The position numbers and the translations under genes were made by a program. A model generated the notes under the pieces. The model made no database searches. It was not told the origin of the DNA and saw only the letters and a list, made by a program, of their open reading frames with translations. A stretch of DNA of 64,000 nt from the NCBI GenBank assembly GCA_009780585.1, contig WQZS01000002.1, positions 186,001 through 250,000 of the forward strand, read 5' to 3'. Shown here piece after piece: positions 7,375 to 61,837 of the stretch. The first letter of the stretch is position 1; every line of letters begins with the position of its first letter. This DNA comes from Defluviitaleaceae bacterium. GTDB lineage: Bacteria > Bacillota > Clostridia > Lachnospirales > WQUN01.

Positions 7375-7400
7375 TCCCTAATTCCAAAGGAGAAATCTTT

Positions 7401-7943: not shown

Positions 7944-7949
7944 CCCTCC

Positions 7950-38155: not shown

Positions 38156-38243
38156 CAAATTCCATATTATATTTTTCCAAATTCCGCACTATCCTTTTCC
38201 GAATCCCGCATTATCCTTTTCTAAAATTCCGTATTATCCTTTG
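38156..38243. repeat. Four tandem 22-bp units
   Basis: Units start at 38156, 38178, 38200 and 38222. The consensus is close to CAAATTCCGCATTATCCTTTTC. A more degenerate continuation runs to about 38105. The stop codon of the upstream U32 gene (38236-38234) lies inside the last unit. Confidence 0.8.
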
Positions 38244-39331
38244 TAAGGGTTTTTCAACGTCTTCATGTACATGTCATTTTTATTTCCGGTGTAATAACCG
38301 TCGGTATAGCCGCCGCGGTTAAAGACGTTAAGGAGCCGTTCCTTTTCCTTTGCCGTAGGGGTTTTGCCGTCAAGGGCGGCGCGGTAGGCTTTGACGGTCG
38401 CGCTTACGTAGTCTTCACCCTTCATACGGCCTTCGATTTTCAACGAAACGATACCCATTTCGATAAGCTCTTTTACATAATCAATCAAGCATAAATCCTT
38501 CAAACTAAGCAGGGGCGCGAACTTAACGTCCCGCTCTTTTCCGTCCCGGCCCGCTCCCCGTTTTGTTCCACGTTCTACCCCCCGGCCCGCTCCCCGCTCT
38601 GTTCCACGTTCCACTCCCCGGCCCGCTCCCCGTTCTGTTCCACGTTCCACTCCCCGGCCCGCTCCACGTTCTGTTCCACGTTCCACTCCCCGACCCGTTC
38701 CCCGCGCTTGCGCCGCGCCCTCCATGCGGTACGGTAATCGGCAGGGCTGAGCGCACTTGCCGCGGTTCGCGCTGCGCCCCCCGATGAAGCTCGACATCAA
38801 ACATTGACCGGAATACGACGCACACAACGCCCCGTGTACGAAGACCTCCAGCCCTATATTTACATTGCGGGCGATTTCTTGTAATTGCGCGCGTGATAAT
38901 TCCCGCGCCATTACGACGCGGGAGAAGCCCAAGTGTTCCAAAACATTCACATCATCCGCCGTCTTCGCCGTCATTTGCGTGCTGGCGTGGAGTTCGGCAT
39001 TGGGAAAATTCCGTTTAATCATTTGCGATAACCCGATGTCCTGTACAATAAAAGCGGCCGCACCCAATTCATAGGCGCAGCCGACCAATTCAACGGCTTC
39101 TTTTAATTCGCGGTCGGTCATTAATATGTTGACCGCAAGATACACCTTTATACCGTACGCCGAAGTATACTCAATCGCCTGCGCCAATTCGCCGTCGTGG
39201 AAATTTTTCGCGTACGCTCGCGCGGAGAATTTACCAGCGCCCAGATACACAGCGTCCGCACCCGCTTGTACGGCGGCTTTGAGGGTTTGTATGCTTCCGG
39301 CGGGAGCCAGGAGTTCGGGTTTTGACATCAT
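38234..39331 (-). CDS. U32-family peptidase, N-terminal half, possibly truncated
   Basis: About 365 residues from ATG 39331 or 39328. The earlier in-frame start at 39403 would lie in a terminator hairpin. The sequence opens with PELLAPAGSIQTLKAAVQAGADAVYLGA and has the U32 hallmark EVFVHGALCASYSGQCLMSSFIGGRSANRGKCAQPCRLPYRM with its Cys set. It ends at FNRGGYTDGYYTGNKNDMY. U32 proteins act in collagen degradation or, like RlhA, in 23S rRNA or tRNA hydroxylation. A 55-residue Gly-Arg-Glu tandem insert sits right after the Cys cluster, where relatives have only a short loop. The stop lies in a 22-bp repeat tract, and the C-terminal domain appears as a separate frame downstream. Confidence 0.75.
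   Translation of the reverse strand: MMSKPELLAPAGSIQTLKAAVQAGADAVYLGAGKFSARAYAKNFHDGELAQAIEYTSAYGIKVYLAVNILMTDRELKEAVELVGCAYELGAAAFIVQDIGLSQMIKRNFPNAELHASTQMTAKTADDVNVLEHLGFSRVVMARELSRAQLQEIARNVNIGLEVFVHGALCASYSGQCLMSSFIGGRSANRGKCAQPCRLPYRMEGAAQARGTGRGVERGTERGAGRGVERGTERGAGRGVERGTERGAGRGVERGTKRGAGRDGKERDVKFAPLLSLKDLCLIDYVKELIEMGIVSLKIEGRMKGEDYVSATVKAYRAALDGKTPTAKEKERLLNVFNRGGYTDGYYTGNKNDMYMKTLKNPYKG
38545..38707. repeat. In-frame 36-bp minisatellite in the U32 gene
   Basis: Four full 36-bp units (38545, 38581, 38617, 38653) and a partial fifth encode copies of RGVERGTERGAG. The copies touch directly without spacers, so this is not a CRISPR array. Confidence 0.9.
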
Positions 39332-39360
39332 AGGGTTAGTATAGCATGATTCACTTGCTA

Positions 39361-39675
39361 TATAAAAACCCTGCGCAAAAGCATTGGAACAATGCTCCCG
39401 CACAGGGTTTTCACCCGCCTCCCGACGTTACCAGGGAGGCGTTCATATTTATTTTGCTTTTTTTCGTTTTTTTGCTATGTCGTAGAAAAGGTCAGGCGGA
39501 TATCCATTACATGCATACCTGTGACTCGGCTGCGCAGCCTTTATGAGTCGGTTGTAAGCCTTGGCGAAGTTAAATCGGGATCGTGGGCATCAGGGACTGT
39601 TGGAAGCAGGGACGGAGCTACCGTTTGTCATCAAGGGAGTATAGATGCCGTCCGTCAAGAAGATGACCTCGGCTT
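39361..39675 (-). ncRNA. Structured leader or stand-alone small RNA of unknown class
   Basis: The stretch between the U32 gene and the DUF262 gene holds no credible ORF but starts with a near-consensus promoter and ends in a terminator. Predicted hairpins on the minus strand include GGCATC/GATGCC enclosing ACGG-TAGCT-CCGT, GACTC/GAGTC enclosing the palindrome GGCTGCGCAGCC, and GCCTCCC/GGGAGGC with a ten-base loop. I checked for T-box, RNase P, tmRNA, SRP and common riboswitch signatures and saw none. It may be a 6S-like or other trans-acting RNA, or an attenuator leader for the U32 gene. Confidence 0.5.
39365..39411 (-). terminator. Strong terminator hairpin upstream of the U32 gene
   Basis: Minus-strand stem AAAACCCTGTGCGGGAGC.. 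pairs through a nested ATTG/CAAT stem with GCGCAGGGTTTTT; five T residues follow. It lies 34 bases before ATG 39331 and could end transcription of the upstream RNA or attenuate the U32 gene. Confidence 0.75.
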
Positions 39676-39759: not shown

Positions 39760-42138
39760 TTATATTTCTTCTCCGTCAAGCCTTATGATTTCCGACTTAA
39801 TATTTAATATCTCACAGATTTTTTTTATATTGTTCTTTTTTTGCATGGTACTTGAATGAACTTCGACGTATAATTCCATGCCGTTAACTGTTATTTTTTT
39901 TGGAGCGCGCATTTTGTTAGGATTTTTCGAAACTATATTGTTTGGCAGGGTGTCGATATTATCCATCCGCAACGTGAAAAGTTCGCTTAATATATTCATG
40001 TAAAGGGTACGCCAATTGTTTCCCGTTACGCTAACCCCCCCGACGGTTATGAATTCGGGTACGGCTTTAATTTCACCACGCAAACCACCCGGAATGATTG
40101 CATAAATTTCTTCTCCCGTATCGGTATATGCCGTAAACTTTTCATGTTCAAGCGCCATAATTTTCAAGGTTTTACCTATATCCTTGAGTTTTTGGTTCAA
40201 GCTCGTTGACACGCCCACTACATAGGGGCCATCCCCGATAATTTTGACAGAACGAAACTTACCAAACCCCGTTTGCTTTTGACCAATCAAATCATGTTGA
40301 TTTTCCACAAGCAAAGTAAATAAATCCGGGTATTGCCCTTCGATATGCGTATAGAAAACCTGCATAAGAGACGAACCTTCGCCCCCGGGAATCGTTTCGT
40401 TTTTTCCGTTAAGTGTATACGAAACAATTTTTTTATCCGAAACGCGTTCCTTACTTTCACTTAATGTAATTAAATCCAAATCCGTAAAGGCTGTCCAAAT
40501 ACGTGCTAATTCCCGGGAAAGTTCTGTCCCTCGATGTATCATTTGCTCCTCGCGCCACGTTGTCAAATAATGCCAACATTCATTGAGTGCGAATTTACTT
40601 TTCAAATATAAATCCCGCTTTTGCGCGAACGCATGATTAGATGCTTTTTTATTTATGCTTCCGGGTAGATACGTAAGGTTGGCAATTGTATCAAGATAAT
40701 GTGTATAAATTCGCTCCCAATCATTCCCCAAGTACGCTTTCCAGGGTTCTGTTAATGTTTGGGGCATGATGTGTTCAATTTGCGTATAATCCGCGCTTAC
40801 CTTTTCATTTTTATTTATTTCGTCTTCCAACGTAGACAATGCTAAATGGCATAAAGAATTGGAACCGCCGTAAAAAGGGTAAAGCCGAATCTTCTCAGCA
40901 AACTCTTCATCGGATAATATATATGTGTTTTTATTTTTGGAAAGGGATGAAACAAGCAGGTTGCGCAAAGTGCGCGGCAAATCCTGCGTCGGATAATTGA
41001 ATAGCTTGGTAATAATCGGCGGGAATAATTTGTCCAACGATTTTTTGGCCTGCGCGTTACCAATAAAAGTACGGACTATAAATATTTCCAGCACCCTTAA
41101 CAATTCGATAGCCGTATCAATATCGATATCTTCGTCTTCGTATTTGATAATAATTGACAGCGCCAATGGAAAATAGGTTTCCGTATCTGTTTTTAACAAA
41201 CGGTTTAATTGATTTCGTAATTTCTTATCTGACACTTTTTTTGTCGGATTGATCATTTTATCGAAGTAATTCGCACATTTATGCAACGCGATAACAAATG
41301 ATCTCGCATCTACGTTATTATCAGATTGAAAGTCCCTGTACGCGGACTTAAAAAATGTATATAAATCCCGAACAGCCACATGTTCGCCCGAAAGCATGAT
41401 GTAGCTCCGTATAAATTTTTCGACACATTGCTCTTCAATGGGGACTACAATGTCCCTCTTGTCTTTTCGTTTTACTCTGTAAACCGTTTTCTTTAAGTCT
41501 TCTAATTGTTTTATATATCTTCTGTAATATAAACGTCTTTCTTCTTCGGGAATATTCATTAAAAGGAAGTTTCGGATAAGATCAAAAGGATCCAAGCTCC
41601 GTCCTTTTGAATTAAGGCTCTCGAATATTGCATAAGCGTTTTCAGCTTCATCTACGAAAATGTTTACCGTATACAAGCGATTCAACAAAGCATCGGCAAA
41701 TCCTTTCCGATCTTCATCGTTTAAATTATCTAAAAAAGCGCGTATTTGAAAAAACCTTCGGGCTACGTTTCCCATACAATCCTTTTTTATATCATCTCGC
41801 TTGATCCGTTCAAATATTTCCTCGTCATCTTCCGCGGGGAAAAATTTGCACGACGCCAATGCTTTTTTTGTATCATGAAACGAAAGTGCGTATAATAGTA
41901 AGAAAAGGGTTGTTACCCGTTGTTGGCCGTCGATAAGAAAGTAATTGCCTTTCTTTCCTTCAAATACTAAAGAACCCAAAAAATGTCTTGCTCCATCATT
42001 ATCAAGCAACGTCCTTATATCTTCGCAAAGCGTGGTTACTTCGGCAGCTTCCCAACAATAAGGACGTTGATAAAGCGGAATTGCAACACTTCCAAGTTCC
42101 GCCAATACTTCAGCAATTGTATGGCTGTTAACTTGCAT
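39760..42138 (-). CDS. DUF262/DUF1524 (GmrSD-like) predicted nuclease protein
   Basis: 792 residues, ATG 42138 with AGGAG seven bases upstream. The DUF262 domain shows IPLYQRPYCW at 20-29 and LIDGQQR at 68-74, the ParB-like NTP-binding motif. A helical middle follows. The DUF1524 HNH-like motif IEHIMPQ is near residue 455, followed by NLTYLPGSINKKASNHAFAQKR. A C-terminal region of about 220 residues includes a DUF5655-like stretch (YTHIEGQYPDLFTLLVENQHDLIGQ) and ends in an extra domain. GmrSD proteins are type IV restriction enzymes cutting modified DNA, and relatives occur in several phage-defence systems. AT-rich and unlike its neighbours. The target is unknown. Confidence 0.85.
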   Translation of the reverse strand: MQVNSHTIAEVLAELGSVAIPLYQRPYCWEAAEVTTLCEDIRTLLDNDGARHFLGSLVFEGKKGNYFLIDGQQRVTTLFLLLYALSFHDTKKALASCKFFPAEDDEEIFERIKRDDIKKDCMGNVARRFFQIRAFLDNLNDEDRKGFADALLNRLYTVNIFVDEAENAYAIFESLNSKGRSLDPFDLIRNFLLMNIPEEERRLYYRRYIKQLEDLKKTVYRVKRKDKRDIVVPIEEQCVEKFIRSYIMLSGEHVAVRDLYTFFKSAYRDFQSDNNVDARSFVIALHKCANYFDKMINPTKKVSDKKLRNQLNRLLKTDTETYFPLALSIIIKYEDEDIDIDTAIELLRVLEIFIVRTFIGNAQAKKSLDKLFPPIITKLFNYPTQDLPRTLRNLLVSSLSKNKNTYILSDEEFAEKIRLYPFYGGSNSLCHLALSTLEDEINKNEKVSADYTQIEHIMPQTLTEPWKAYLGNDWERIYTHYLDTIANLTYLPGSINKKASNHAFAQKRDLYLKSKFALNECWHYLTTWREEQMIHRGTELSRELARIWTAFTDLDLITLSESKERVSDKKIVSYTLNGKNETIPGGEGSSLMQVFYTHIEGQYPDLFTLLVENQHDLIGQKQTGFGKFRSVKIIGDGPYVVGVSTSLNQKLKDIGKTLKIMALEHEKFTAYTDTGEEIYAIIPGGLRGEIKAVPEFITVGGVSVTGNNWRTLYMNILSELFTLRMDNIDTLPNNIVSKNPNKMRAPKKITVNGMELYVEVHSSTMQKKNNIKKICEILNIKSEIIRLDGEEI

Positions 42139-42660: not shown

Positions 42661-44226
42661 ATGGCTATCATAAAACCAAGGCTACCGGAAATAAATTGCC
42701 GAACTTGCGGAGGAAAACTCAGACCTAAAAATATTTTTTGCACAAAATGCGGGGATATGGTGGCAAGCGGGCGCCGTTGCGCTTCATGTTATCATCTGCT
42801 TGAGGAGTACGATATTTTTTGCGGGGCATGTGGAATAAGGTGCGTGGAAATAAAAAACCAAGAAACCGTGAAACCCCTTGATGAAGAAGAAATAAAAGCA
42901 ACTAAAATTTCCGAACATTGGATTGCGCACAGAAGTGATTTACATATGCTCGGAAATGTAAAATATACAAAAAAAAATATTGATCTCCATATATATCCGC
43001 CTTACGATATTGGCATCGGATATTATAAAGGACATATTTATAAAGTGAATAAAGATGATAAAGATAACTCCGTTATTTTATATAGAATAAACCAAAAAAC
43101 GTCTAAAATAAGCCATACAATTAAATTGGATCATGATTATGGAAATATTTACGGTGTTAACAGATGCGGTATATTTTTTGTAAAAAATGTAGATGGATAC
43201 TTAAAATCATACGCAGAAAAGATAAAGTTATCGGATGGTTGGGAACACTCCGGAGAGCAAACCTATACTATAACAAACATCGGTTTTGATGGTACATTTT
43301 TGGGTCAAGTGCAGATAAAATCCGAATATTATTTTCATAATGAAATGAATTGGGAAATATACCAAGGACAACCGGAATGGATATTTATATTAAATGATAC
43401 CATTTATTACACATACGGTTATGGGGTAAAAAGCGTAAACATAACAAGCGGAAAAGAAAATATTATCTATGAATTTAATGATCTTAATTTACTAAACGAT
43501 ATGAATGGAGGAAAAATAGCGGCTCAATCTGAAGCTGTAAAGATTAAATTCGTTCTCGCTGATACCGATTATATTTATTTTAACATTACTATAAATAAGG
43601 AATATATCAAATATGACATGAATATTTTTAATAATTTAAAAAACAATGATAATTATTGGTATAGATACAACAACATAACAAGTGAAATCGAATGTATCAG
43701 CTCAACCTGTATAGACTTGTTTGATATCTTTACAAAGCCGGAAATGTTTTTAAAGAATATATACGATCCCATTAAAAATGAATGGGCTGATAATCCAAAA
43801 TTTAAAAATGATTTGTCTTATATTAATATTCGGGTCATTGATATAGTTAACGGTATTATGTGGATTTCGCATAAAAATAACAACAATATTTTAGAAGCTC
43901 GAAGCATCTGTATTACACCCGGCCATTCTACCAACCAAATTTTGGAGTGGCAGTTTGATACGTGGGGCGAAAATGTTTATTTTGATGGTAATTATATGAT
44001 CATCGCTAATAACCTCGGAAGATTACTTAGTGTTTATGACAAATTAGGGAATGTATTAATTAAACAACATAGTACTTATTACGCAAATTATATGTTTATA
44101 GCCGGAGATTATATTTACGGAGGTTTTAACGTTGGCGGAAATTCAGAAGAAATGAATCGTATAAAAATTTCCAACGGTATTAAATTAAAGGTTGAATCCG
44201 CTCCTGAGATTTATAGAACTGTATAA
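42661..44226 (+). CDS. Double zinc-ribbon protein with a predicted beta-propeller-like body
   Basis: 521 residues. Residues 12-65 carry four CxxC knuckles (CRTCGGKLRPKNIFCTKCG and CASCYHLLEEYDIFCGACG), a DZANK-type double zinc ribbon. The remaining 400 residues are a Tyr/Asn/Ile-rich series of short beta repeats (IYKVNKDDKDNSVILYRINQ, IYYTYGYGVKSVNITSGKENIIYEF, YIYFNITINKEYIKYD), resembling DUF5050/YWTD-like propellers. No catalytic residues recognised. Very AT-rich. Between the membrane protein and the KAP NTPase, it may be a sensor or scaffold. Confidence 0.7.
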   Translation: MAIIKPRLPEINCRTCGGKLRPKNIFCTKCGDMVASGRRCASCYHLLEEYDIFCGACGIRCVEIKNQETVKPLDEEEIKATKISEHWIAHRSDLHMLGNVKYTKKNIDLHIYPPYDIGIGYYKGHIYKVNKDDKDNSVILYRINQKTSKISHTIKLDHDYGNIYGVNRCGIFFVKNVDGYLKSYAEKIKLSDGWEHSGEQTYTITNIGFDGTFLGQVQIKSEYYFHNEMNWEIYQGQPEWIFILNDTIYYTYGYGVKSVNITSGKENIIYEFNDLNLLNDMNGGKIAAQSEAVKIKFVLADTDYIYFNITINKEYIKYDMNIFNNLKNNDNYWYRYNNITSEIECISSTCIDLFDIFTKPEMFLKNIYDPIKNEWADNPKFKNDLSYINIRVIDIVNGIMWISHKNNNNILEARSICITPGHSTNQILEWQFDTWGENVYFDGNYMIIANNLGRLLSVYDKLGNVLIKQHSTYYANYMFIAGDYIYGGFNVGGNSEEMNRIKISNGIKLKVESAPEIYRTV

Positions 44227-44247
44227 AATAAAAAATGAGGAATAATT

Positions 44248-45969
44248 ATGACAAAAAAATTTTTAGGTGTCACAGATTTACCGCGCAAAAAAGATACGGA
44301 AGACCTGCTTAATGTTGACGCTTATATAAAAGGGTTGTGTGAGTTTATAAAAACTTGCAAAACCCCCATGTCCATTGCCCTACAGGGTGATTGGGGTAGC
44401 GGTAAATCTTCTTTTTTAAACCAAATAGAAGAAAACATGATGGAGAACGAAATTAAAGTAATATTTTTTAATACATGGCAATATTCGCAAATGAACAAAG
44501 ATGATAATTTGGCTAAAATATTCATAACATCGCTATTAAATGATATGGGGCTTGAAGACAAAACAAAAAGAAAAATAAGCGAAACGGTTATGCACATAGG
44601 CCGGTCGGTAATTAATAAATATGTAGGAGATGAAAAATTATTTGATACATTGATGGATTGCGAAACAGGTATTAAACGTATTAAAAGTTTAAAAGACAAT
44701 TTTAAGGAATCCATATCAGAGGCGATCGCTGTTAACGCAAAAAAATATGGAAAGGAAAACATAGATTTATCCAATGAACGCTTGGTGATACTCGTAGATG
44801 ACTTGGATCGTCTTAATCCCAGCGTTGCGGTGGAGTTATTAGAAGTTATCAAACTATTTTTAGATGTCGAACAATGCGTTTTTGTGTTGGCAATTGATTA
44901 TGATGTCGTCGTCCAAGGTGTAAGAACAAAATTCGGTAAGGATATTTCCATTGATAAATGCCGTAGCTTTTTCGATAAGATTATACAACTCCCTTTTTAT
45001 ATGCCGGTTGAAATGTACAAACTCGAAAAAATGGTAAAAGAATACTTAGGTGAAAAAATTAGAAAAGAACATATCGAAAAATTAAGCGCTTTCGCCGAAT
45101 TGGTTATTGGCGCGAATCCGCGGGCATTTAAACGTTTAGTCAATTCATTCCTTTTATTGGAAATTATACAAAATAATTTACACGGTTCCATAAATACCCA
45201 TACTCTTCCTTATAATGAAGAGGATTATGCGATTCTTTTATGTGTGCTTTGTATACAAATCAATCATCCACAATTATATAGTTTTCTCTCCGAACCCGAA
45301 GCATGGCTTGAACAAGTAAAAAATGACGATGGTTTTCTTCCTAAAAATGAAAACGAAGATTTTGAAGCAAACGATGTCCTTCGTGAAAAATTGTCTTATT
45401 TTTCAGATGAAAAAATGGAAGATAAATATTTTGGATTAATTTTAAATATATTATCTGCTTTGGATGGTATATTGAACAGCCTTTTTTCAAAAAGCACTAA
45501 AAACAATAATAAATATGACCATTTGTCTCGAGTTATCAACCTTTCCGCGGTGACACACCGCGAAAATACTAATACTTCGGCAAAGCAAGGCCGCCGTTCT
45601 ACCCCCGTTACAATCAAAATAAATAAAGATGAATCAAGTTATCAAGTAGCACACGAAGCATATAAAACCGTTGCGGAAACCCTATTAAAAGAACACCAAG
45701 ATAAAATTGCCGATTGTTTAAATAAATTGGGGAGATTTTTAACTACAGACCCGAACCGGAAAAATGGATTTTTTGGTACCGAAGGCAAGCAAAAACGTAA
45801 ATTAAACCAAATTTATTTAACCGAAGACAATCAAAAAAATACGGTGTTCATCGGTATCCATTCAAGCACGGAAGCAAAGCGTTTGCAATTATCCGAATTG
45901 CTTCGAGTATTGAACATTAATAAAGGTTTTGTAATTTGGAAGGACGCTCAAGGAGAATTTGAATTATAA
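44248..45969 (+). CDS. KAP-family P-loop NTPase
   Basis: 573 residues. Walker A QGDWGSGKSS at 46-55, then IFFNTWQYSQ; Walker B VILVDDLDRLNPSVAVELLEVIKLFL near residues 178-200; sensor FVLAIDYDVVVQGV and the downstream NPRAFKRLVNSFLLL. These are the KAP (Kidins220/ARMS-PifA) NTPase signatures. Unlike many KAP proteins it shows no membrane helices inserted in the NTPase domain. PifA, a family member, excludes phage T7. The C-terminal 200 residues are charged and unassigned. Last gene of its operon; a shared hairpin terminator lies downstream. Confidence 0.88.
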   Translation: MTKKFLGVTDLPRKKDTEDLLNVDAYIKGLCEFIKTCKTPMSIALQGDWGSGKSSFLNQIEENMMENEIKVIFFNTWQYSQMNKDDNLAKIFITSLLNDMGLEDKTKRKISETVMHIGRSVINKYVGDEKLFDTLMDCETGIKRIKSLKDNFKESISEAIAVNAKKYGKENIDLSNERLVILVDDLDRLNPSVAVELLEVIKLFLDVEQCVFVLAIDYDVVVQGVRTKFGKDISIDKCRSFFDKIIQLPFYMPVEMYKLEKMVKEYLGEKIRKEHIEKLSAFAELVIGANPRAFKRLVNSFLLLEIIQNNLHGSINTHTLPYNEEDYAILLCVLCIQINHPQLYSFLSEPEAWLEQVKNDDGFLPKNENEDFEANDVLREKLSYFSDEKMEDKYFGLILNILSALDGILNSLFSKSTKNNNKYDHLSRVINLSAVTHRENTNTSAKQGRRSTPVTIKINKDESSYQVAHEAYKTVAETLLKEHQDKIADCLNKLGRFLTTDPNRKNGFFGTEGKQKRKLNQIYLTEDNQKNTVFIGIHSSTEAKRLQLSELLRVLNINKGFVIWKDAQGEFEL

Positions 45970-46137: not shown

Positions 46138-48222
46138 TTACAGCCTAATCAATTCCGCGATGCTCATCGCGATGTTATCCAAGATATCGAAAAACTTGTC
46201 GTTAAGGTCGTAATATTTCCCGTTCGGCTTGGTCACGGGGTCGTAAGCGTCGATACTCTCCCTGTCCTTACGCGCCACTACATAAGTCGTGACCGAATAT
46301 GCCGCCAGCATATCGCAGATGTTCGCTACGCTTTTGCCGCTCATGGTGGGGACGTGGGGCGGCGCGTCGGTGATGAGGATGAAGATGTTACGCGCCGTGC
46401 CGTCGTCGCGGTGGGATTTGAGCAGCTCTATCCCGGTTTCCAAAGCGTCCAATGATGACTCCGGGATGTCGCCGCCGTAGGTGCGCGGGATGTTCTTCAC
46501 TTGCTTTTGGAATTTGGGCACGTCGTCGGTAAAGTTGTATACGCTGGGCTTTTCTTTTTCGCCCAAGTCGCCGAAGCCGATGAGCCCCAGCTTGTATAGC
46601 GCACCCTTCGACGCGAGGATATTGGAGAATTCGATAGCGCGGTCCTTTACGCCGTTGATATAGGTATCCATGCTACCCGTAGTGTCGATGAGGAACACGA
46701 CGTTGACGCGGTCGGTACCCGCCACGCCGCGCATATCACGGGAAGGCGGGGGCGGCGCGGGCTTCGAACGGTCAAACTCGGCGCGTTCGGCGCGGCCGGT
46801 CGCCATGTCTTTGACGTAAACCTCGAAGATATTGTTCTCGTCGATGGCGTAGGTGATCTCAAGCTGCGTCGTACCGCTCAAGCCGGACAAGGCGACCGTA
46901 CCGATGTAACGGCGGTCGTCCTCGCGGTTTTGCTCCCATTGGTACACGTCCACGTTAACGCGGCTCGCCCCCGACATGCTGGCGAAGTTGGAATCCGTAT
47001 AGCGGCTGGGGATGGGGCTGCCCATGGGAATGATGGGGATGGGGCGGCGTTCCATGGTGGCGATGTTGGTGACCGCTTCCGTGCCGAACACTTGGCGGGA
47101 GATTTGCCCCACTTTCACGTTGGAATTGGGCAAGTGGATCAGGTAGTTGTAAATAGACGCGCCCATCGCCACGCTCTTGGCGGGGTCGGTGGCACGGTAG
47201 GGTTCCTTGATATAACCCGCCACCATGCGGCGCACCATGGGGATAAGCGTGGAACCGCCGACCAGTACGACCTTAGAAATTTCGTCGGCCTTCCTGTCCG
47301 CGCGCTTTAACGCTTCCTCGATGATGTCGCGGCTGCGGTCTACGTATTTGCGGATCAACGCTTCAAATTCCTCGCGGGTGATTTCGGCGTTTAAATTCTT
47401 GGGTACGCCGTCCACGATAATCAACGGATTTATCCGTACGGCTACTTTATTCGTGCCCGATAGTTTCTTCTTGGTTTGCTCGGCTTCCTGCTTCAACTTT
47501 TGCATGACGCGTTTGCGCTCGGCGTTATCCAAGTCGTCGAGGTCGATGCCGTTGGCTTCGGTAAAGGCGTTCTTCATCCAACGCACCAGTTCGGAATCGA
47601 AATCGTCGCCGCCCAAATTCATGTCGCCCACGTCGGAAAGCTCCTGGAAGGTTTCCTGCCCGTTTTCGTCCTGCGAAACCTGTAATACGCACGCGTCAAA
47701 CGTACCGCCGCCCAAGTCGTACACCAACAGCGTTTGGGCATACGATTGGCGGTAGCCGTATTCGATGGCGGCGGCGAGGGGTTCGGATAAAAGGTACACG
47801 TTCTTAAAGCCCGCCAACAGCCCCGCCTGCTTGGTGGCAAAAATTTGCCTGTCGTTAAAGTACGCGGGGTGCGTGACGACTACTTCGTCGAAGGTTTCCC
47901 CCGCTTGCTCCTCTGCGGCACGTTTTAACTTGCGCAAAATATCCGCGCTGATGTCTTCGGGCGTTTTCTCCATGTCGCCCAAGTGGATGGCGTCCCCCGA
48001 GCCCATCATCCGTTTGACCGAAAGGACGGTGCTTTCCGGGTACACAATCGCCCCCGCTTTGGCCTCCGCGCCCACGATGGTCCCCTCCGGGCCGTAACAC
48101 ACCACGGAGGGCAGGATTTCATCGGTGCCGTCCACTTTTACGACATCGAGGATGTCCTTCTTGTCGTTGTAGATAATCGCGACCGAGTTGGTGGTGCCTA
48201 AGTCAATGCCTAAGTAACCCAT
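46138..48222 (-). CDS. Hsp70-like chaperone fused to a C-terminal von Willebrand A domain
   Basis: 694 residues, ATG 48222 behind AGGAGG. The ATPase domain is canonical: IDLGTTNS (6-13), VKRMMGS with the catalytic Lys70, DLGGGTFD (169-176), GGDDFDSELVRW and VVLVGGSTLIPMVR. A short substrate-binding beta domain follows (about 385-490). In place of the helical lid there is a PPPPS linker and a VWA domain from about 504, with MIDAS DTTGS (513-517) and ILITDAPPH. VWA domains bind protein ligands through a metal. Last of nine genes in the minus-strand operon. This architecture is not the housekeeping dnaK. Confidence 0.9.
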   Translation of the reverse strand: MGYLGIDLGTTNSVAIIYNDKKDILDVVKVDGTDEILPSVVCYGPEGTIVGAEAKAGAIVYPESTVLSVKRMMGSGDAIHLGDMEKTPEDISADILRKLKRAAEEQAGETFDEVVVTHPAYFNDRQIFATKQAGLLAGFKNVYLLSEPLAAAIEYGYRQSYAQTLLVYDLGGGTFDACVLQVSQDENGQETFQELSDVGDMNLGGDDFDSELVRWMKNAFTEANGIDLDDLDNAERKRVMQKLKQEAEQTKKKLSGTNKVAVRINPLIIVDGVPKNLNAEITREEFEALIRKYVDRSRDIIEEALKRADRKADEISKVVLVGGSTLIPMVRRMVAGYIKEPYRATDPAKSVAMGASIYNYLIHLPNSNVKVGQISRQVFGTEAVTNIATMERRPIPIIPMGSPIPSRYTDSNFASMSGASRVNVDVYQWEQNREDDRRYIGTVALSGLSGTTQLEITYAIDENNIFEVYVKDMATGRAERAEFDRSKPAPPPPSRDMRGVAGTDRVNVVFLIDTTGSMDTYINGVKDRAIEFSNILASKGALYKLGLIGFGDLGEKEKPSVYNFTDDVPKFQKQVKNIPRTYGGDIPESSLDALETGIELLKSHRDDGTARNIFILITDAPPHVPTMSGKSVANICDMLAAYSVTTYVVARKDRESIDAYDPVTKPNGKYYDLNDKFFDILDNIAMSIAELIRL

Positions 48223-48236
48223 GGTTTTCCTCCTAT

Positions 48237-48467
48237 TTATGCCGCATGAGCTGTGTATTCCACGATTGCCACTTCTTTGATTAAACTTTCCAGCTTGTCG
48301 ATAATCATTTCCACATTTTGCATTACATCATCCGTAAAATATACTTCCCCGCATTGGCCGCACACCCAAGACGGTACGCGTTTTACGATAATTACGGAAT
48401 TATCCAGCGTTACGGCATGGGTTTTTTCAACGGGTTGTGTTTTTCCCATACAACGGAAGCAATCCAT
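48237..48467 (-). CDS. YgiT-type zinc finger protein (MqsA-like antitoxin N-domain)
   Basis: 76 residues. CFRCMGK at the N-terminus and WVCGQCGEVYF give two CxxC pairs, the YgiT zinc finger; the C-terminal helix VEMIIDKLESLIKEVAI resembles stand-alone YgiT proteins. Such proteins commonly pair with DUF4258 proteins. It starts three bases after the DUF4258 stop. Confidence 0.85.
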   Translation of the reverse strand: MDCFRCMGKTQPVEKTHAVTLDNSVIIVKRVPSWVCGQCGEVYFTDDVMQNVEMIIDKLESLIKEVAIVEYTAHAA

Positions 48468-48470
48468 CGG

Positions 48471-48794
48471 TTATTGCCCCTTTCTTGTTTTATAATCGCT
48501 TTCCCATTGGTTTATGTCGGGGCGGTACGCGGTAATTATACTGCACAAAACACCCGCGTTAACCCCCACCACAATATGCAACGGTTGATTATACGCATAA
48601 TAACCTAAAATCAAACAACTCGGGAAAGGAGTGTCGTCGGTGTATTGCTTTATTATTTCCCCATTATATATACATTCAAGCAAATCCATACGTCTGATGC
48701 CGCGTTCGCGCAAACGCGCAGCCACATGCTCCGTCCATATGACTTTTCCCTCAGATATAAGCGTTATGATTTGGGATAAGTTAATTGCGGGCAT
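48471..48794 (-). CDS. DUF4258 protein, putative toxin partner
   Basis: 107 residues. The family pattern is present: VIWTEHVAARLRERGIRRMDLLECIYNGEIIKQY followed by HIVVGVNAGVLCSIITAYRPD. DUF4258 proteins resemble RelE/MqsR-like folds and usually sit beside a YgiT zinc finger gene, as here, so I infer a toxin-antitoxin-like pair. The start overlaps the GNAT stop by 14 bases. Confidence 0.8.
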   Translation of the reverse strand: MPAINLSQIITLISEGKVIWTEHVAARLRERGIRRMDLLECIYNGEIIKQYTDDTPFPSCLILGYYAYNQPLHIVVGVNAGVLCSIITAYRPDINQWESDYKTRKGQ

Positions 48795-49327: not shown

Positions 49328-50317
49328 TTATTTTACCAATTTATTTTTCAATATTTTTAATTCCTCGCGTACGAAATATCCCGTTTCTACCATATACGCA
49401 ATATCTTGCAAGGTTGCGGCTTTTGCGTCCATGGTTTCGCCTTTTTGCGGGATAAAATCGGTTAAGTCGAAGTTGTGGCGGAACAGCCAGTTATCCCAAA
49501 AGGCGTTTTCCTCCCGCACGGTGCGGAACAGCTCGGCGGCTTCGATACATTCGGGGGGTAGGATTACACCCGTTTCTTCTTTGACTTCGCGGGCGGCGGC
49601 TTGGCGGCTGGTTTCCCCCGCGGCTGCGCTGCCGGAGGTGATTTCCCACATGCCGGGGCTGCCCAGCTTGGTAAGGCAACGGCGAGTGCTTATAAATTCG
49701 CCTTTCGCGTTCATCACCCACGCGCGCACCACGGTGTGGTAGGTGCCGGGTGGCTTGGGGTCGCCGCGTTTGTGTGTGACGCCCAAGGGGTTACGGTCGG
49801 CGTCCAGTAAATCCCAATATTCATCCGGGGTGTTGCGCGCCAGCCAGCGTTGCATTTCGGCGAACAGTACGGGTAGGATTTCGGGGTAGGTCATGGTGTC
49901 GGGGAGGGTGTCGAAGGCTTTGATTTCCGCCATTTCATAGGTTGGGTCAAGCGCGCCGAATTTTTCCACATCGGCAAGGTAGGCTTGCCCGTTACCCTTT
50001 GATATGCCGCTCCGATGCACGGTGTAATCAAAAGCGGGGTGCAAATGAAACTTTTCCGCGCCCGTTTCCTCCCGCAGCTCGCGCTCGGCACATTGGAAGG
50101 GCGTTTCACCCGGCTCAATACGTCCGCCCGCGGTTTCGAATGTCGTGCGCTCCTTGTGGCGGGCGTAGAGCCATTGCCAGCGGAGCGGATTGCCGGAGGA
50201 AGTGTCGCCCTTTCCAACCCCGGAAGGAACCGCTTGGCGGGTGAAGATAACGGTATATTTATAATCGTTGAAAGTATTGTAAGGGTATGTTTTTGTTAAT
50301 AAACCCCCGTGGGTCAT
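49328..50317 (-). CDS. Tandem Nudix hydrolase
   Basis: 329 residues with two Nudix boxes. The first, GGRIEPGETPFQCAERELREETGA, is at about residues 64-87, in a domain resembling YtkD-type 8-oxo-dGTPases. The second, SGSAAAGETSRQAAAREVKEETGV, is at about 222-245, in a domain with the DLLDADRNPLGVTHKRGD opening seen in IPP-isomerase-like Nudix proteins. Both keep the REVKEE-type metal ligands. Nudix enzymes hydrolyse nucleoside diphosphate derivatives. Translation is coupled to the upstream Hsp70 (ATGA overlap). Two-domain fusions of this type are uncommon. Confidence 0.88.
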   Translation of the reverse strand: MTHGGLLTKTYPYNTFNDYKYTVIFTRQAVPSGVGKGDTSSGNPLRWQWLYARHKERTTFETAGGRIEPGETPFQCAERELREETGAEKFHLHPAFDYTVHRSGISKGNGQAYLADVEKFGALDPTYEMAEIKAFDTLPDTMTYPEILPVLFAEMQRWLARNTPDEYWDLLDADRNPLGVTHKRGDPKPPGTYHTVVRAWVMNAKGEFISTRRCLTKLGSPGMWEITSGSAAAGETSRQAAAREVKEETGVILPPECIEAAELFRTVREENAFWDNWLFRHNFDLTDFIPQKGETMDAKAATLQDIAYMVETGYFVREELKILKNKLVK

Positions 50318-51957
50318 GATTTAATCCCCAACTCCGTCTTAACAAACCTTTCCGGTGAAAACGCTTCGCTAAACCCGCTCGACGGCCATTCCGCGCCGAA
50401 GCCCACGTCCTCCACGCGTCCATGCACCAAGCCGCCTTCTTCCTCCACCATTAACGTGATGCGCAGTTTTGTCTTGCCGCTGGGGCGTACGGGCAAGCCT
50501 TTAATGGAAACTTCACCGATGGGTTTGCACGCTTCGAAGGGGTCGTCGGCTTGCACACGCTCCAGGATTTTGAGCGCGAAGCCCGTCATTTCCTCGGGGG
50601 TGTTGCCGCTTAGCGTGAATACATGGCTTTTCTTCGCCAGCGCGTAGAACGTACCCCGCCGTATCATGGTGAAGAATTTCTTCTCACGCCCTGTATCGAT
50701 TTCCAAGCCGATGTCGTGGGGTACGGTGACTTCGAAGGCGACGGTGACCTTTTCCGATTCCATATCGGGGTGAGAGAGCAAGCCCATCTTCATGGCGGCG
50801 TAGTAGGTCGCGCCGAGGGAAATGTCCAGCGCGGGCCGTTCGGATGAATAAATTTTGCCTTCGTCACTAAAAATATCCAAAAGCATTTCCCGCACCCAGG
50901 GCATTTGCGACGAGCCGCCTTCCAGCAGTACGCGGTCGATATCGTCGGGCGTCAAACCGCCGGTATAGGTTTCGCGCAGGGCCTTGAGGACGAGTTTGCG
51001 GGTCTTGTTAATGAAGGGATTGATGAGCTCATGAAATTCCTCCCGGGTTATTTGTTCCACAAACGGCGGGATGCAGAACGTAAACGGGATGCGGAAACGC
51101 CCGACGCCGCTGAGGCGCTCCTTGGCTTCCCGCGCGCGGGCGACCAGCTCAACACGGTTCTCTATGGCCAGGTCTTGCAGGGTTTGGCCGGTTTTGGCTT
51201 GAATGAAACCGGCGCAGGCTTCTACTAGCGTATCGTCGATATCGTCGCCGCCGTGGTGCGCCTCGCCGCCTTGGGAAATGACGGCTAGTTTTATACGTGC
51301 CTCATCGCGTTCGGCTACGTGGAAAAGCGTGATGTCCAGCGTGCCGCCGCCGAAGTCGAAGACCATGATTTTTTCGTCTTTTTTTAAGGTATTGCGGAAA
51401 TTATAGGCGAGCGCGGCGGCGTTGGGTTCTTTAATTAAGCAAATCAGCTTGTCCGCCAAGCCCGCGATTTCACACGCGCGCATGGTGGCCTTTTGCGCCG
51501 CGTCGTCGAAGTCGTAGGGCACGCAAACGACCAAGCCCGCGATTTCGGCCTTGGGGTTGAGGTTTTGGGCGTGGCCGACGAGTTCGCTTAACAGCTTGGC
51601 GGAAATTTCTTCGGGTAAGTATTTTTTACCGCCCAAAGTTACCGTCGCGTTCGTACCCATCTTACGCTTGATGGAGCGCACGGTGGTTTCGGGGTACATC
51701 TTCATGGAGCGGTAGGCTTCCTCGCCGATGACCCATTCGTCCTCGTCACCGTTTTCCCCCTCGCGGAACTGTACCACGCTGGGCAGGGGAACCTTGCCGA
51801 AGCCGTTGGAAATATCTATGGGTTCGGGCTTGCCGCCGGCGTTGTCCCAATAACTGATGACGGAGTGGGTCGTGCCCAAGTCAATGCCGAGGATGTACCA
51901 ATCCTCGGGCAGGGTGCCTTTATCGTCTATTTGCTTGCGGTAGTCTTCCCAGGTCAT
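50314..51957 (-). CDS. Hsp70-like chaperone, lidless short form
   Basis: 547 residues. After a 20-residue N-terminal tail come IDLGTTHS (25-32), VRSIKRKMGT with Lys97, VCVPYDF, DFGGGTLD (201-208), GGDDIDD and LEGGSSQMPWVR: an intact ATPase core. The last 150 residues form a short beta domain (VTVPHDIGLEIDTGREKKFFTMIRRGT) without the helical lid, so peptide binding would differ from DnaK. The N-terminal tail MTWEDYRKQ... parallels that of the degenerate Hsp70 at 52594, suggesting common descent. Fourth gene of the operon. Confidence 0.92.
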   Translation of the reverse strand: MTWEDYRKQIDDKGTLPEDWYILGIDLGTTHSVISYWDNAGGKPEPIDISNGFGKVPLPSVVQFREGENGDEDEWVIGEEAYRSMKMYPETTVRSIKRKMGTNATVTLGGKKYLPEEISAKLLSELVGHAQNLNPKAEIAGLVVCVPYDFDDAAQKATMRACEIAGLADKLICLIKEPNAAALAYNFRNTLKKDEKIMVFDFGGGTLDITLFHVAERDEARIKLAVISQGGEAHHGGDDIDDTLVEACAGFIQAKTGQTLQDLAIENRVELVARAREAKERLSGVGRFRIPFTFCIPPFVEQITREEFHELINPFINKTRKLVLKALRETYTGGLTPDDIDRVLLEGGSSQMPWVREMLLDIFSDEGKIYSSERPALDISLGATYYAAMKMGLLSHPDMESEKVTVAFEVTVPHDIGLEIDTGREKKFFTMIRRGTFYALAKKSHVFTLSGNTPEEMTGFALKILERVQADDPFEACKPIGEVSIKGLPVRPSGKTKLRITLMVEEEGGLVHGRVEDVGFGAEWPSSGFSEAFSPERFVKTELGIKS

Positions 51958-52593: not shown

Positions 52594-54174
52594 TCAAGCC
52601 AACCTAACCGCAAAGGCTTCTTCATACGCCGATTTGGGGAATAACTCCCCGAAGCCCAAATCCCGTACCTTTAGGGTCATATCTACATTGGAGGCGAATT
52701 CCAAGGCAATGCCCAAGCGGGTCGTGCCTTTGGGGCGTTCGGGCAAGCCGGTCAGGTCGATTTCGGTTAGGGGTTGTAGTTCGCCCGCGGGGGAGCGGCG
52801 TGCCAAGTGCAGGCGCAGGGCGTCGAGCTGGTTTTTCGTCCAGTCTTCGGGGTCACCGACGGATTTGTTTACCAGGATGAGCTTGTCCGGATGCTTTTGC
52901 CACCAAAAGGCGTTGCGCTCGACGAGGGGGAGGAAGGCGTCGCCGTCCGAAAGCCCGATGTCGGCGGTGAGCTGGTGGCGGTCCTCCAGGCTGACGGCGG
53001 GTCCTTCGGCGATGCCCAGGCGTTGGGCGGCTACGAGTGCCGCGCCCTCGGCGGTGATGAGCTTCGCGTTCTTGTGGAAGCGTACCTGCGCCCGGGTAAA
53101 CATGTCGCCCACGGCTTCCCGCGCCCACAGCATTTCGAAGCCGCCGCCCACGCACAGGACGGCGGAAATATCCTGCGGGAGGATTTCTTCCTCGTAGAGG
53201 TTCTTTTGCAATACGTCGCGCATGAAACGGTTGAAACGGCGGTGATAGGGCTTTATGAGCCGCGTCGCGTCGTCGTGGGAGAGGGTTTGCTGGAAGGGCG
53301 GGTAAGCGAAGTTGAAGTACAGCTTGGCTTCCTTGGTGCGGATGGTTTTTTGGAACAGCATGTCCTTATGCTGGTACACGAAGGCGGACACCTGCTCGGT
53401 CATTTGCTTGCTTAATTGCTTGACGGGCTGCTGCGCCAGCAGGAAGGATTCGAACAAATCGCACACGTCGGCTACGATGCCGAAGGTGCCGATGGTATCG
53501 TCGAAAAGGCTGGAAATACTTTTAACGGCGATGGTGTCGCCTTGGGGCATGACGTGGTATAAACCGCCGCGCACCTCGCGGCTGCCGTAGTCGAAGAGCA
53601 TGACGCGGGATTCGTGGGGGGCGTGCCGCGCGTAATGGTGGGCGAATACACATTCGCGGTCGGGTACCAGCGCGATGAGCTCGCGTTCGTAGCCCGCGGC
53701 TTTGAAGGCGCGCACAAGCTCGGCTTGTGCCTGCTCGCTGAAATACGCCGGAATGGAAGCGACGATGCCCGCGATTTCCGCCTTGGGGTTAATGTTGCGC
53801 ACGCTGGAGAGGATTTCCTTTAAAAAAAGCGCCAAAATCGATACCACACTCATGGGCTTGTGCGCAACATCCACGTAATCAAAGCTGCCCAAGCGTCCGA
53901 TCAAGTCGTTGAGCGTTACTTCCGTACCTACGCCTCGGTTCAATATGGCATATTCGCCGTACACCCATTCCTTCGTTTCGGCGATGTACTGCATGACGGT
54001 GGGAATGGACGGTTTGCCGTAGCCGCCGCTTAAGTCAATGGTTTCGGGGATATTTTCCGCGGCGTTATAGAAGGCGATGCCGGAGGAATCGTTGCCGATG
54101 TCCAGCCCGATTATATAATATGACTCGTCCCGTTTTTGTGGGTCGGGAAGGTTTTTATATTGCTTCCAATGCAC
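52594..54174 (-). CDS. Degenerate Hsp70-like protein, predicted ATPase-dead
   Basis: 526 residues. Order and length follow the Hsp70 of 50314-51957, but the key motifs are altered: phosphate-1 reads DIGNDSSG (25-32) instead of DLGTTxS; the catalytic Lys is replaced in TLNDLIGR (Asn89); phosphate-2 reads DYGSREVRG (195-203) instead of DLGGGTxD; the adenosine loop is VGGGFEM. NPKAEIAGIVASIPAYF and the C-terminal ITEIDLTGLPERPKGTTRL beta region are conserved with its neighbour. The frame is intact and long, so this is a functional divergence rather than decay. It may act as a regulatory partner of the active Hsp70s. Confidence 0.85.
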   Translation of the reverse strand: MHWKQYKNLPDPQKRDESYYIIGLDIGNDSSGIAFYNAAENIPETIDLSGGYGKPSIPTVMQYIAETKEWVYGEYAILNRGVGTEVTLNDLIGRLGSFDYVDVAHKPMSVVSILALFLKEILSSVRNINPKAEIAGIVASIPAYFSEQAQAELVRAFKAAGYERELIALVPDRECVFAHHYARHAPHESRVMLFDYGSREVRGGLYHVMPQGDTIAVKSISSLFDDTIGTFGIVADVCDLFESFLLAQQPVKQLSKQMTEQVSAFVYQHKDMLFQKTIRTKEAKLYFNFAYPPFQQTLSHDDATRLIKPYHRRFNRFMRDVLQKNLYEEEILPQDISAVLCVGGGFEMLWAREAVGDMFTRAQVRFHKNAKLITAEGAALVAAQRLGIAEGPAVSLEDRHQLTADIGLSDGDAFLPLVERNAFWWQKHPDKLILVNKSVGDPEDWTKNQLDALRLHLARRSPAGELQPLTEIDLTGLPERPKGTTRLGIALEFASNVDMTLKVRDLGFGELFPKSAYEEAFAVRLA

Positions 54175-54184
54175 GGGTGTTACC

Positions 54185-55924
54185 TCATCTCGCCGCGATT
54201 ACGTTTGCCCGCATCAGCACTTGGTCGTTGTGCCTGTAGCCGCTGCCTACCAATTTTATGATTTCGCCCTTGGCGAAGCCTTCCTGCTTTTCCGCCACCA
54301 GGACTTCATGCTCCTTACCGTTGAAGGCATCGTGCGGCGCGGGGCGGATGGGGGTGATGTTATTCTTGCGCAGGAGCACCTCCAGCGCCGCGTAGGTGTC
54401 GTGCAGCTTTTGCGCGGCGGCAAGGACGGCTTCGTTGTCCGATTCCTTCAGGCGGGAAACGCTGTGGGTCAATATTTCCTCGTAGGTGCAGACTTCGTAC
54501 AGCAGAATTTCCTTTTTAAAGCGCAGCGCGGCTTTTTCCATTTTCGCCGTATAGTGGTTTACGTGTTTTTCGTAATCGGTCCTGTAGGGGGCGAAGGCTT
54601 CGCTTTCGCGGCAGCGCGCGAGGAAGCAGGGTAGGTCCGTTTCCGTCGGGGGGTCGCTCAGCCACGCCTCCCTGATGGTTAAATAAGCGGCTTCCTTGAT
54701 TTCGTCGGTTACGTCGTTTTTTTCCTTGGCGAAGGATTGCAACAGGCCGGCGCTTTCGCCGTTAAAGGCTTGTATGCTTTCGCGCAGGCTTTCGATTTTG
54801 ATTTCCAGCGTTTCGGTAATGCCCGCGATGATTTGTCCTTCGGTTTTCGTGCCGTCGGGTTCTCCTTCTGCCAGCAGCGTGTATGCCGTGCTAAAGAGCG
54901 CGGCCGCTTCCTCGGCGATGAGGATTTCCACGCCAATCATGCGCTGCATCTTGTATGCCGCTTTAAGGAAGGTGATGCGCTGTTGGCCGAAAAGGGTAGC
55001 CGTTTCCTCCCGCAGGGCTTCGAAGAAAGGGGTCGTGTCGGGAAGGGCGCCGGGGGGTTCCGCTACCGCTTGCGCGCGGATTGCCGCAGAAAATTCCTCA
55101 TACGTACGGCAGGGCGATACCTGCCCCGTGCGTGCCGCGGTTTGCGGCAGGGTGCGTATATCCTCAATCATCGGCCCGATTTGCTGATACGCCTCGCGGA
55201 TGATGTCAAGCACGCGAATAGGCGCAATGTCCGATTCGGATACTTCCGCTTCCAACGCTTGTACCTGTACGCGTATCATCGCCTCCAGCATTTCCCATTC
55301 ACGTTCGATTAATTCGATATAGGAATACGTAACCCTTCGCCCGTGCAGATCGTCCAACCCCAGCAGGCAAAAACGCAGACCGTCCTGGTAATGGACGAAT
55401 ATTTCCCGCAGGGCTTGCTCGTCCCGCCATTCGATTTTATTCCCCAATATAAATATCCCGCGCATAGCCGCCCATATTTCGGGCGCGGCTTTACCGGGGT
55501 ATTGGTTTGCCTGGTTTTCGATTTGGCGGGCGGTATACAAGAGCGCGCGTTCAACGATCGCGCGTTTTTCCTCCGCTACGGGGTTGGGGGTTGATTCTTC
55601 GCCTGCCATATCCTCGAATTGCCGCAAACGGGAATTGAGGATATCGCGAATACCCGCCATCAAGGCGTTGACGGTCGGGTTCGCTTCCGTCTCCGCGTCG
55701 GAGGATTCAATCAATCCCACGGCTTCACGGTACGCTGCCATCAGTTGCATCAACCGGTCGTATACGCGTTCATCGCTACCGCCGAGGCGCGAAAAACGCG
55801 CCGCGTCCTCGGCCAGTATTTCACACGCGACGCGATTGTATTGGCCGAACAAACGCAGGATATATCCCTTTAGGGCTTCGTCCGCCGCGGCGGCGAGTTG
55901 TTGCCAAGTATTAATTAGGGACAT
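54185..55924 (-). CDS. Long helical protein with C-terminal GrpE-like domain
   Basis: 579 residues, first gene of the nine-gene operon, behind GGGGTG. The first 510 residues are mostly predicted helix, rich in Glu, Ala and Leu, with repeated patterns (RVYDRLMQLMAAYREAVGLIES; TTPFFEALREETATLFGQQRITFLKAAYKMQRM). The last 65 (LLRKNNITPIRPAPHDAFNGKEHEVL ... GEIIKLVGSGYRHNDQVLMRANVIAAR) match the beta domain of GrpE, the DnaK nucleotide exchange factor (HEAV...G.I..V...GY....++R.A.V.V). I infer that it releases ADP from the operon's own Hsp70s. Ordinary GrpE is about 200 residues. Confidence 0.75.
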   Translation of the reverse strand: MSLINTWQQLAAAADEALKGYILRLFGQYNRVACEILAEDAARFSRLGGSDERVYDRLMQLMAAYREAVGLIESSDAETEANPTVNALMAGIRDILNSRLRQFEDMAGEESTPNPVAEEKRAIVERALLYTARQIENQANQYPGKAAPEIWAAMRGIFILGNKIEWRDEQALREIFVHYQDGLRFCLLGLDDLHGRRVTYSYIELIEREWEMLEAMIRVQVQALEAEVSESDIAPIRVLDIIREAYQQIGPMIEDIRTLPQTAARTGQVSPCRTYEEFSAAIRAQAVAEPPGALPDTTPFFEALREETATLFGQQRITFLKAAYKMQRMIGVEILIAEEAAALFSTAYTLLAEGEPDGTKTEGQIIAGITETLEIKIESLRESIQAFNGESAGLLQSFAKEKNDVTDEIKEAAYLTIREAWLSDPPTETDLPCFLARCRESEAFAPYRTDYEKHVNHYTAKMEKAALRFKKEILLYEVCTYEEILTHSVSRLKESDNEAVLAAAQKLHDTYAALEVLLRKNNITPIRPAPHDAFNGKEHEVLVAEKQEGFAKGEIIKLVGSGYRHNDQVLMRANVIAAR

Positions 55925-61157: not shown

Positions 61158-61253
61158 GGAACATAGGTAGGTAAGACAACACCCGTGACAAATAACCAAT
61201 TGGATTTTACGAATAATTATGATACATTTACAACAGCAAAGGAGGCGGATCAT

Positions 61254-61502
61254 ATGCCAAACATTAAACCCGTTTCGGATTTACGGAATTATAACGAAGT
61301 CTTACGTGATGTGGATGTCCGCGAACCCGTATTTTTAACGAAGAACGGACGCGGACGGTATGCGCTTATGGACATACAAGATTTTGAACGTTTACATGCC
61401 TCGATTCGGTTATTGTCCGAATTGTCCAAAGGTGAAAAATCTGCAAAAGAAAGCGGTTGGTTTTCTATTGAGGAAATCGAAGCGGAATTGGGTATCGCAT
61501 GA
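61254..61502 (+). CDS. Phd/YefM-family antitoxin
   Basis: 82 residues from ATG 61254, behind AAAGGAGGCGG. MPNIKPVSDLRNYNEVLRDVDVREPVFLTKNGRGRYALMDIQDFERL is a typical Phd/YefM DNA-binding half; the acidic C-terminal tail would neutralise the toxin. The stop overlaps the toxin start (ATGATGA). Such proteins repress their own operon. Confidence 0.93.
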   Translation: MPNIKPVSDLRNYNEVLRDVDVREPVFLTKNGRGRYALMDIQDFERLHASIRLLSELSKGEKSAKESGWFSIEEIEAELGIA

Positions 61503-61837
61503 TGAAATTGCAAGTCACACCAGCAGCGCGAAATGACTTAAAAGAAATCCGCGCATACATAACAAACGAATTAATGAACCCGCAAGCGGCAATTAACGTT
61601 GTTAAACGCATTACAACACGCATACGATCACTTATGGATTTTCCCGCGTTGGGTGCGCCGCTGTCGTCCGTTACGGAATTTGATACTGATTACCGTTTCC
61701 TCATATGCGGGAATTACATGGCATTTTATCGGTTCGACGATAGAAATGTGTATATACTCCGTATACTGTACGGCAGACGCGATTTCATTAAAATTCTTTT
61801 CGGCATATCAACGGTATCGGGTGACGAAATCCCATAA
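61499..61837 (+). CDS. ParE/RelE-family toxin
   Basis: 112 residues. KLQVTPAARNDLKEIRAYITNELMNPQAAINVVKRITTRIRSLMDFPALGAPL and YRFLICGNYMAFYRFDDRNVYILRILYGRRDFIKILF match the ParE/RelE plasmid-stabilisation family. Members poison DNA gyrase or cleave mRNA at the ribosome; the subtype cannot be decided here. Translationally coupled to the antitoxin. Confidence 0.92.
   Translation: MMKLQVTPAARNDLKEIRAYITNELMNPQAAINVVKRITTRIRSLMDFPALGAPLSSVTEFDTDYRFLICGNYMAFYRFDDRNVYILRILYGRRDFIKILFGISTVSGDEIP

Follow-up and report, generated by a model that had tools for sequence, protein, structure and literature searches.

The window, by which we mean the whole stretch of 64,000 nucleotides analysed here, carries on its minus strand a gene encoding an Hsp70 fused to a von Willebrand A (VWA) domain, referred to below as HV. 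The coordinates given for this gene in the earlier note, 46138-48222, are correct, and its reading frame, which opens with an ATG, runs on the minus strand. The gene and its parts, with the evidence that defines each, are:

46138..48222, minus strand: Hsp70-VWA fusion gene (HV), 694 aa (open reading frame, translation, Pfam HSP70 and VWA, full-length conservation elsewhere)
48229..48234, minus strand: AGGAGG ribosome-binding site of HV (sequence)
47134..48222, minus strand: Hsp70 nucleotide-binding domain (NBD), residues 1-363 (Pfam, DnaK structural match, site table)
46768..47121, minus strand: Hsp70 beta-sandwich substrate-binding subdomain (SBD), residues 368-485 (VIA alignment on DnaK, site table)
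46711..46767, minus strand: Pro-rich linker, residues 486-504 (pLDDT, pairwise identity)
46141..46710, minus strand: VWA domain, residues 505-694 (Pfam, AF2 model, fold searches)
46672..46686, minus strand: MIDAS motif DTTGS (D513, T515, S517), residues 513-517 (63/63 distinct sequences)
46459..46476, minus strand: GGDIPE motif (D585, P587, E588), counterpart of the integrin-beta D-x-P-E (conserved in 62/62 sequences with letters there)
46354..46374, minus strand: ITDAPPH, with the last MIDAS aspartate D619 (conserved in 62/62 sequences with letters there)

Three further genes of the operon to which HV belongs in related genomes are also present in the window:

50314..51957, minus strand: short lidless Hsp70 (SH; Pfam HSP70), immediately before HV in relatives (synteny)
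52594..54174, minus strand: catalytically dead lidless Hsp70 of the DUF5716 family (Pfam DUF5716_C and HSP70)
54185..55924, minus strand: GrpE-like protein with a long N-terminal part and a C-terminal GrpE region (Pfam, profile match to PDB GrpE)

Other genes of the window were recorded as observations in their own right:

38234-39403, minus strand: protein resembling a U32-family peptidase, in which a GRGVERGTERGA-type unit is repeated in tandem and in frame
39760-42138, minus strand: GmrSD-like restriction protein (GmrSD_N and GmrSD_C; PADLOC Orf5/HEC-06/SspE-like), a possible defence gene near HV
42661-45969, plus strand: zinc-ribbon protein, then a KAP NTPase (PADLOC QatA/PifA-like), convergent with HV
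48237-48467 and 48471-48794, minus strand: YgiT-type zinc-finger protein (TIGR03831) and DUF4258 protein, resembling a type II toxin-antitoxin pair and located between HV and the short Hsp70, genes that nearly touch in many relatives
61185-61837, plus strand: Phd/YefM antitoxin and ParE toxin pair

That HV is a genuine fusion, as had been proposed from the sequence, is confirmed by its Pfam domains, by fold matches and by full-length copies in other genomes. Residues 1-486 match HSP70 (PF00012, E 5e-93), and residues 507 onward match both VWA_4 (E 2e-10) and VWA (E 1.3e-6), each above its gathering cut-off. The AlphaFold model of the full-length protein has a pLDDT of 77.6, and its residues 1-484 align structurally with DnaK in VIA at a Z of about 45. 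The Pro-rich linker described between the beta domain and the VWA is present at residues 486-504, and its residues 494-503 fall below a pLDDT of 50.

Because the top rows of whole-model Foldseek and VIA searches were all Hsp70s, the VWA domain was folded and searched alone. The isolated AF2 model (pLDDT 80, pTM 0.83) superposes on solved VWA/I domains with Z values of 17.5-19.5 over about 175 residues, and its best Foldseek matches are integrin beta chains (E 1e-9), so that domain search and structure prediction both uphold the assignment of the C-terminal region as a VWA fold. The MIDAS motif recognized in the earlier note is likewise sound: D513, T515 and S517 are invariant in 63/63 distinct HV sequences, and none of the five metal-site residues (D513, T515, S517, E588, D619) varies over 62-63 distinct sequences. 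We take E588 to be a metal ligand from established knowledge of integrin beta chains. GGDIPE aligns with NIDTPE of integrin beta, the alignment with integrin beta-6 being weak (E 0.02). The VWA of HV thus carries a complete predicted MIDAS metal site, and fold ranking, together with this weak sequence alignment, points to integrin-beta subunits as its closest resemblance.

The Hsp70 part was examined through a site table comparing 17 HV, 17 short Hsp70, 17 Hsp70-A and 14 DnaK sequences, along with 16 copies of the dead Hsp70. The equivalents of the catalytic residues D8, T11, T12, K70, E171 and D194 are invariant in 17/17 HV sequences, and the beta-sandwich pocket positions V436/I438/V440 stay aliphatic (V/V/V). 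HV has a methionine at the DnaK T199 position, which might have meant a catalytic defect, but 12 of the 14 DnaKs of these bacteria have an asparagine there and the idea was abandoned. By contrast, D393 of the LLLD linker and the J-protein contacts R167, N170 and T173 are kept in none of the 17 HV sequences, as against all 14 DnaKs, and they are absent also from every short Hsp70 and Hsp70-A compared (17 each). Because the loop at R167 is two residues shorter in HV, automatic alignment leaves a gap opposite this residue; whichever way the loop is placed, no HV has an arginine at that position. N170 and T173 are J-domain contact residues in the DnaK-DnaJ structure. R167 and D393 have been linked to J-protein action and interdomain coupling (PMC7289447, PMC6843406), and, given the loss of the canonical linker, NBD-SBD coupling could be weak or absent in HV. 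Against the NCBIfam DnaK models HV scores 337-339, under cut-offs of 648-823. The description of the ATPase core as fully canonical therefore holds for the catalytic residues but not for the J-contact and linker positions, which are lost in 17/17.

The alpha-helical lid of Hsp70 is missing from HV and the VWA stands at its place, as the earlier note had it; the sister Hsp70s, however, end without anything there. All four operon Hsp70s are lidless and HV alone has a VWA, which makes the domain an addition to an already lidless type. Its position in the chain is that of the lid, but it was added rather than swapped in.

In relatives, the operon runs DUF5717, Hsp70-A, GrpE-like, dead Hsp70/DUF5716, short Hsp70, HV and TPR, an order that is identical in many families of the order, with DUF5717 often divided into two genes. 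L143, L144, L146 and L147 are single-contig genomes that have the operon. The proteins measure about 558 aa (Hsp70-A), 560-640 (GrpE-like), about 510 (dead Hsp70), about 545 (short Hsp70) and about 385 (TPR); in the window's GrpE-like protein, Pfam GrpE lies at residues 455-576 (E 4e-12). In the window's genome the gene set is spread over four contigs with every component kept: the GrpE-like protein, dead Hsp70, short Hsp70 and HV lie within the window, Hsp70-A on C11, DUF5717 on C21 and TPR on C48. The window's operon genes are interspersed with genes for an HD-domain protein, a NUDIX protein and an acetyltransferase, and with the DUF4258/YgiT pair. That all parts persist despite this scattering is the strongest evidence that the components work together. 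HV and DUF5717 occur together in 67 of 68 HV genomes, and DUF5717 occurs without HV in 25 more (Fisher p 4e-30, a value that ignores kinship among these related genomes and so cannot be read as a true probability). Gene order and co-retention lead us to infer that the components physically associate.

When the J-like matches of the window's own genome were located, no J-protein gene lay near the operon genes: DnaJ, at C2:62777, adjoins DnaK (64306-66021), and the only other J-like match is on C17. A Pfam scan of the operon genes and their immediate neighbours gave no match to a MoxR-type ATPase, and gene content thus lends no support to the link to MoxR and Ter systems that had been suggested. 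One locus in a related genome, L148 (G027) 6340-8384, has HV split over two frames (494 + 198 aa) and shortened GrpE-like and TPR genes, which points either to sequencing errors or to an operon in decay.

None of the 16 copies of the dead Hsp70 compared keeps K70 or E171, and the profile of this protein matches the short Hsp70 (E 1e-69). In a Lachnospiraceae-like family (f5, loci L134-L140), which we read as Lachnospiraceae, all that is left of the set is DUF5717, DUF5716 and a small TPR-like protein. The profile of the DUF5716 from this reduced set matches the operon's dead Hsp70 (E 3e-42) and short Hsp70 (E 3e-18), and finds DnaK in the PDB (E 3e-5). On profile evidence, DUF5716 is a dead Hsp70, a link that we did not find in the open-access literature. 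The identification of DUF5716 as a dead Hsp70 and of DUF5717 as an operon partner provides a setting for two Pfam families of unknown function, and the DUF5717/DUF5716 link extends to a Lachnospiraceae-like family whose members are common gut bacteria.

The fusion belongs to a group of gut-type Clostridia. Other genomes have it at 54 loci, with 63-100% identity, and most of these copies cover residues 1-694 (about 50 full length), so that neither chance nor misassembly explains it. Among the nearest relatives, 25 of 41 genomes carry it, own genome included (matches below 1e-60); in the sample of the order the count is 68 of 196 genomes (E 1e-20). The nearest relatives are metagenome-assembled Defluviitaleaceae and Clostridiales, one of which (L010) has an HV identical over the best segment; sample names lead us to guess that they come from termite guts. 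Other matches in the samples of the class (291 genomes) and phylum (299), which overlap slightly and both include the own genome, were distant VWA proteins at 24-34% identity. These were discarded as HV relatives, the fetched stretches having no Hsp70 match and the two examined in full resembling surface proteins. Plasmid and phage collections held no close HV, their matches being VWAs in other proteins (26-33% identity). Separately, at least 80 viral contigs (L204-L283) carry Hsp70s that are 31-36% identical to the Hsp70 part of HV, with no VWA in frame.

HV, SH, Hsp70-A and DnaK each form a clade of their own, all four fully supported, on long stems and with an uncertain branching order. Across 12 operons, the mean pairwise identity of HV is 0.74 in the ATPase, 0.64 in the beta-sandwich, 0.27 in the Pro-rich linker and 0.71 in the VWA, the nearly equal values for VWA and ATPase indicating nearly equal constraint on the two. 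Other operon proteins diverge fast over the same 12 operons (GrpE-like 0.24, dead Hsp70 0.32, TPR 0.27).

The reading we prefer, to which we would give slightly less than an even chance, is that HV is the partner-binding subunit of a dedicated, apparently J-independent cytosolic multi-Hsp70 assembly or remodelling machine, in which the contact between VWA and partner is bridged by Mg2+. Three of the four operon Hsp70s keep their catalytic residues. An acidic residue of the partner or client protein would complete the Mg2+ site and so bind that protein to the VWA, and the lidless beta-sandwich would give a weaker, faster-exchanging peptide contact. The pace of ATP turnover would be set not by a J-protein but by the sister Hsp70s together with the GrpE-like factor, the latter resetting the nucleotide, and repeated cycles of binding and release would assemble or remodel a protein complex. 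Such a task might be comparable to that of MoxR-VWA pairs, but Hsp70-powered. An extended version, which we consider improbable, would make this a J-protein-independent class of Hsp70, with four lidless paralogs and an integrin-like, Mg2+-dependent VWA capture with an affinity governed by the ATP cycle and by the machine's own GrpE-like factor.

The VWA could also act independently of the ATPase cycle. It may do no more than keep a lidless Hsp70 at a single fixed partner, without mechanical coupling, an account with which both the invariant metal site and the flexible, poorly conserved linker agree; we nonetheless judge it unlikely, as it leaves the retention of three other lidless Hsp70s and of the GrpE-like protein unexplained.

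The earlier note had envisaged instead an ATP-controlled ligand grip, in which the VWA would stand in for the lid and the MIDAS site would open and close under the direct control of the Hsp70's ATP state. The VWA does occupy the chain position of the lid, and VWA and ATPase pairwise identities correlate at 0.91, although any two parts of one gene would do so. The intervening linker, however, is flexible and unconserved (pLDDT < 50; 27% mean identity), which argues against a rigid lid-like swap, the canonical NBD-SBD linker is lost, with LLLD and the J-contact arginine absent, and the sister Hsp70s manage without a lid or any replacement for it. We therefore regard a lid-like grip as possible, though with a low probability, and do not favour it.

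Least probable of all, and in our view quite remote, is a role in defence or conflict as a variant of the GAP1-N2 GTPase/HSP70/GrpE systems predicted by Kaur et al. 2020 (eLife 52696), for, although the parts of that work consulted report HSP70, GrpE, a shortened second HSP70 and TPR-bearing proteins in actinobacteria and firmicutes, and a GmrSD-like gene and a KAP ATPase adjoin in the window, HV is single-copy, slowly evolving and in a separate clade, no effector domain was found in the operon, plasmid and phage collections lack a close-identity HV, and the GAP1-N2 link itself is not supported, there being no GAP1-N2 gene at the locus and a match in only 16 of 68 HV genomes, the own one on another contig (C1). 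This own-genome GAP1-N2 protein is at L158 / G000:C1:236548-236877, and the matches in the order sample are mostly in the window's own family.

The interest of the system lies in the fact that Hsp70s are among the best-studied molecular machines, and that their working is held to centre on the lid, the LLLD linker and stimulation by J-proteins. This gene set keeps the catalytic site yet loses lid, LLLD and J-contacts in three paralogs, one of which gains an integrin-like domain; nature thus provides a case in which to test what an Hsp70 ATPase is capable of once the standard coupling parts are gone. No description of an Hsp70-VWA fusion or of its operon was found in the open-access literature, the scope of our survey as distinct from subscription journals and architecture databases, and we accordingly put its novelty at not found, short of proven. 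The closest published theme is the pairing of HSP70 with GrpE in the GAP1-N2 systems of Kaur et al. 2020.

HV can be compared with several known systems. With DnaK/Hsp70 and its partners DnaJ and GrpE it shares the ATPase fold, the catalytic residues, the beta-sandwich with its aliphatic pocket and a GrpE-like factor in the set; it differs in having a VWA where the helical lid would be, in the loss of LLLD and J-contacts and in an operon without a J-protein. The integrin beta I-like domain has the same VWA fold and corresponding metal-site residues (D-x-T/S-x-S, D-x-P-E, D), but HV is bacterial and has neither a signal peptide nor the integrin insertions. MoxR-VWA ternary and TerY-type systems also partner an ATPase with a MIDAS-bearing VWA, the ATPase there being a MoxR AAA+ ring, whereas in HV it is an Hsp70 in the same chain. 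The GAP1-N2/HSP70/GrpE systems (eLife 52696), as far as the consulted parts of that source describe them, resemble the HV locus in combining HSP70, GrpE, an extra shortened HSP70 and TPR proteins in firmicutes; the HV locus lacks a GAP1-N2 gene, and those parts describe no Hsp70-VWA fusion. CoCoNuT CnuD and the McrB-Hsp70 fusions (eLife 94800) likewise have Hsp70 NBD/SBD units joined to other domains or encoded next to them, and their operons include TerY-like VWA genes; in those systems, however, the VWA has a gene of its own and the ATP site is degenerate, whereas HV has its VWA in the same chain and an intact ATP site.
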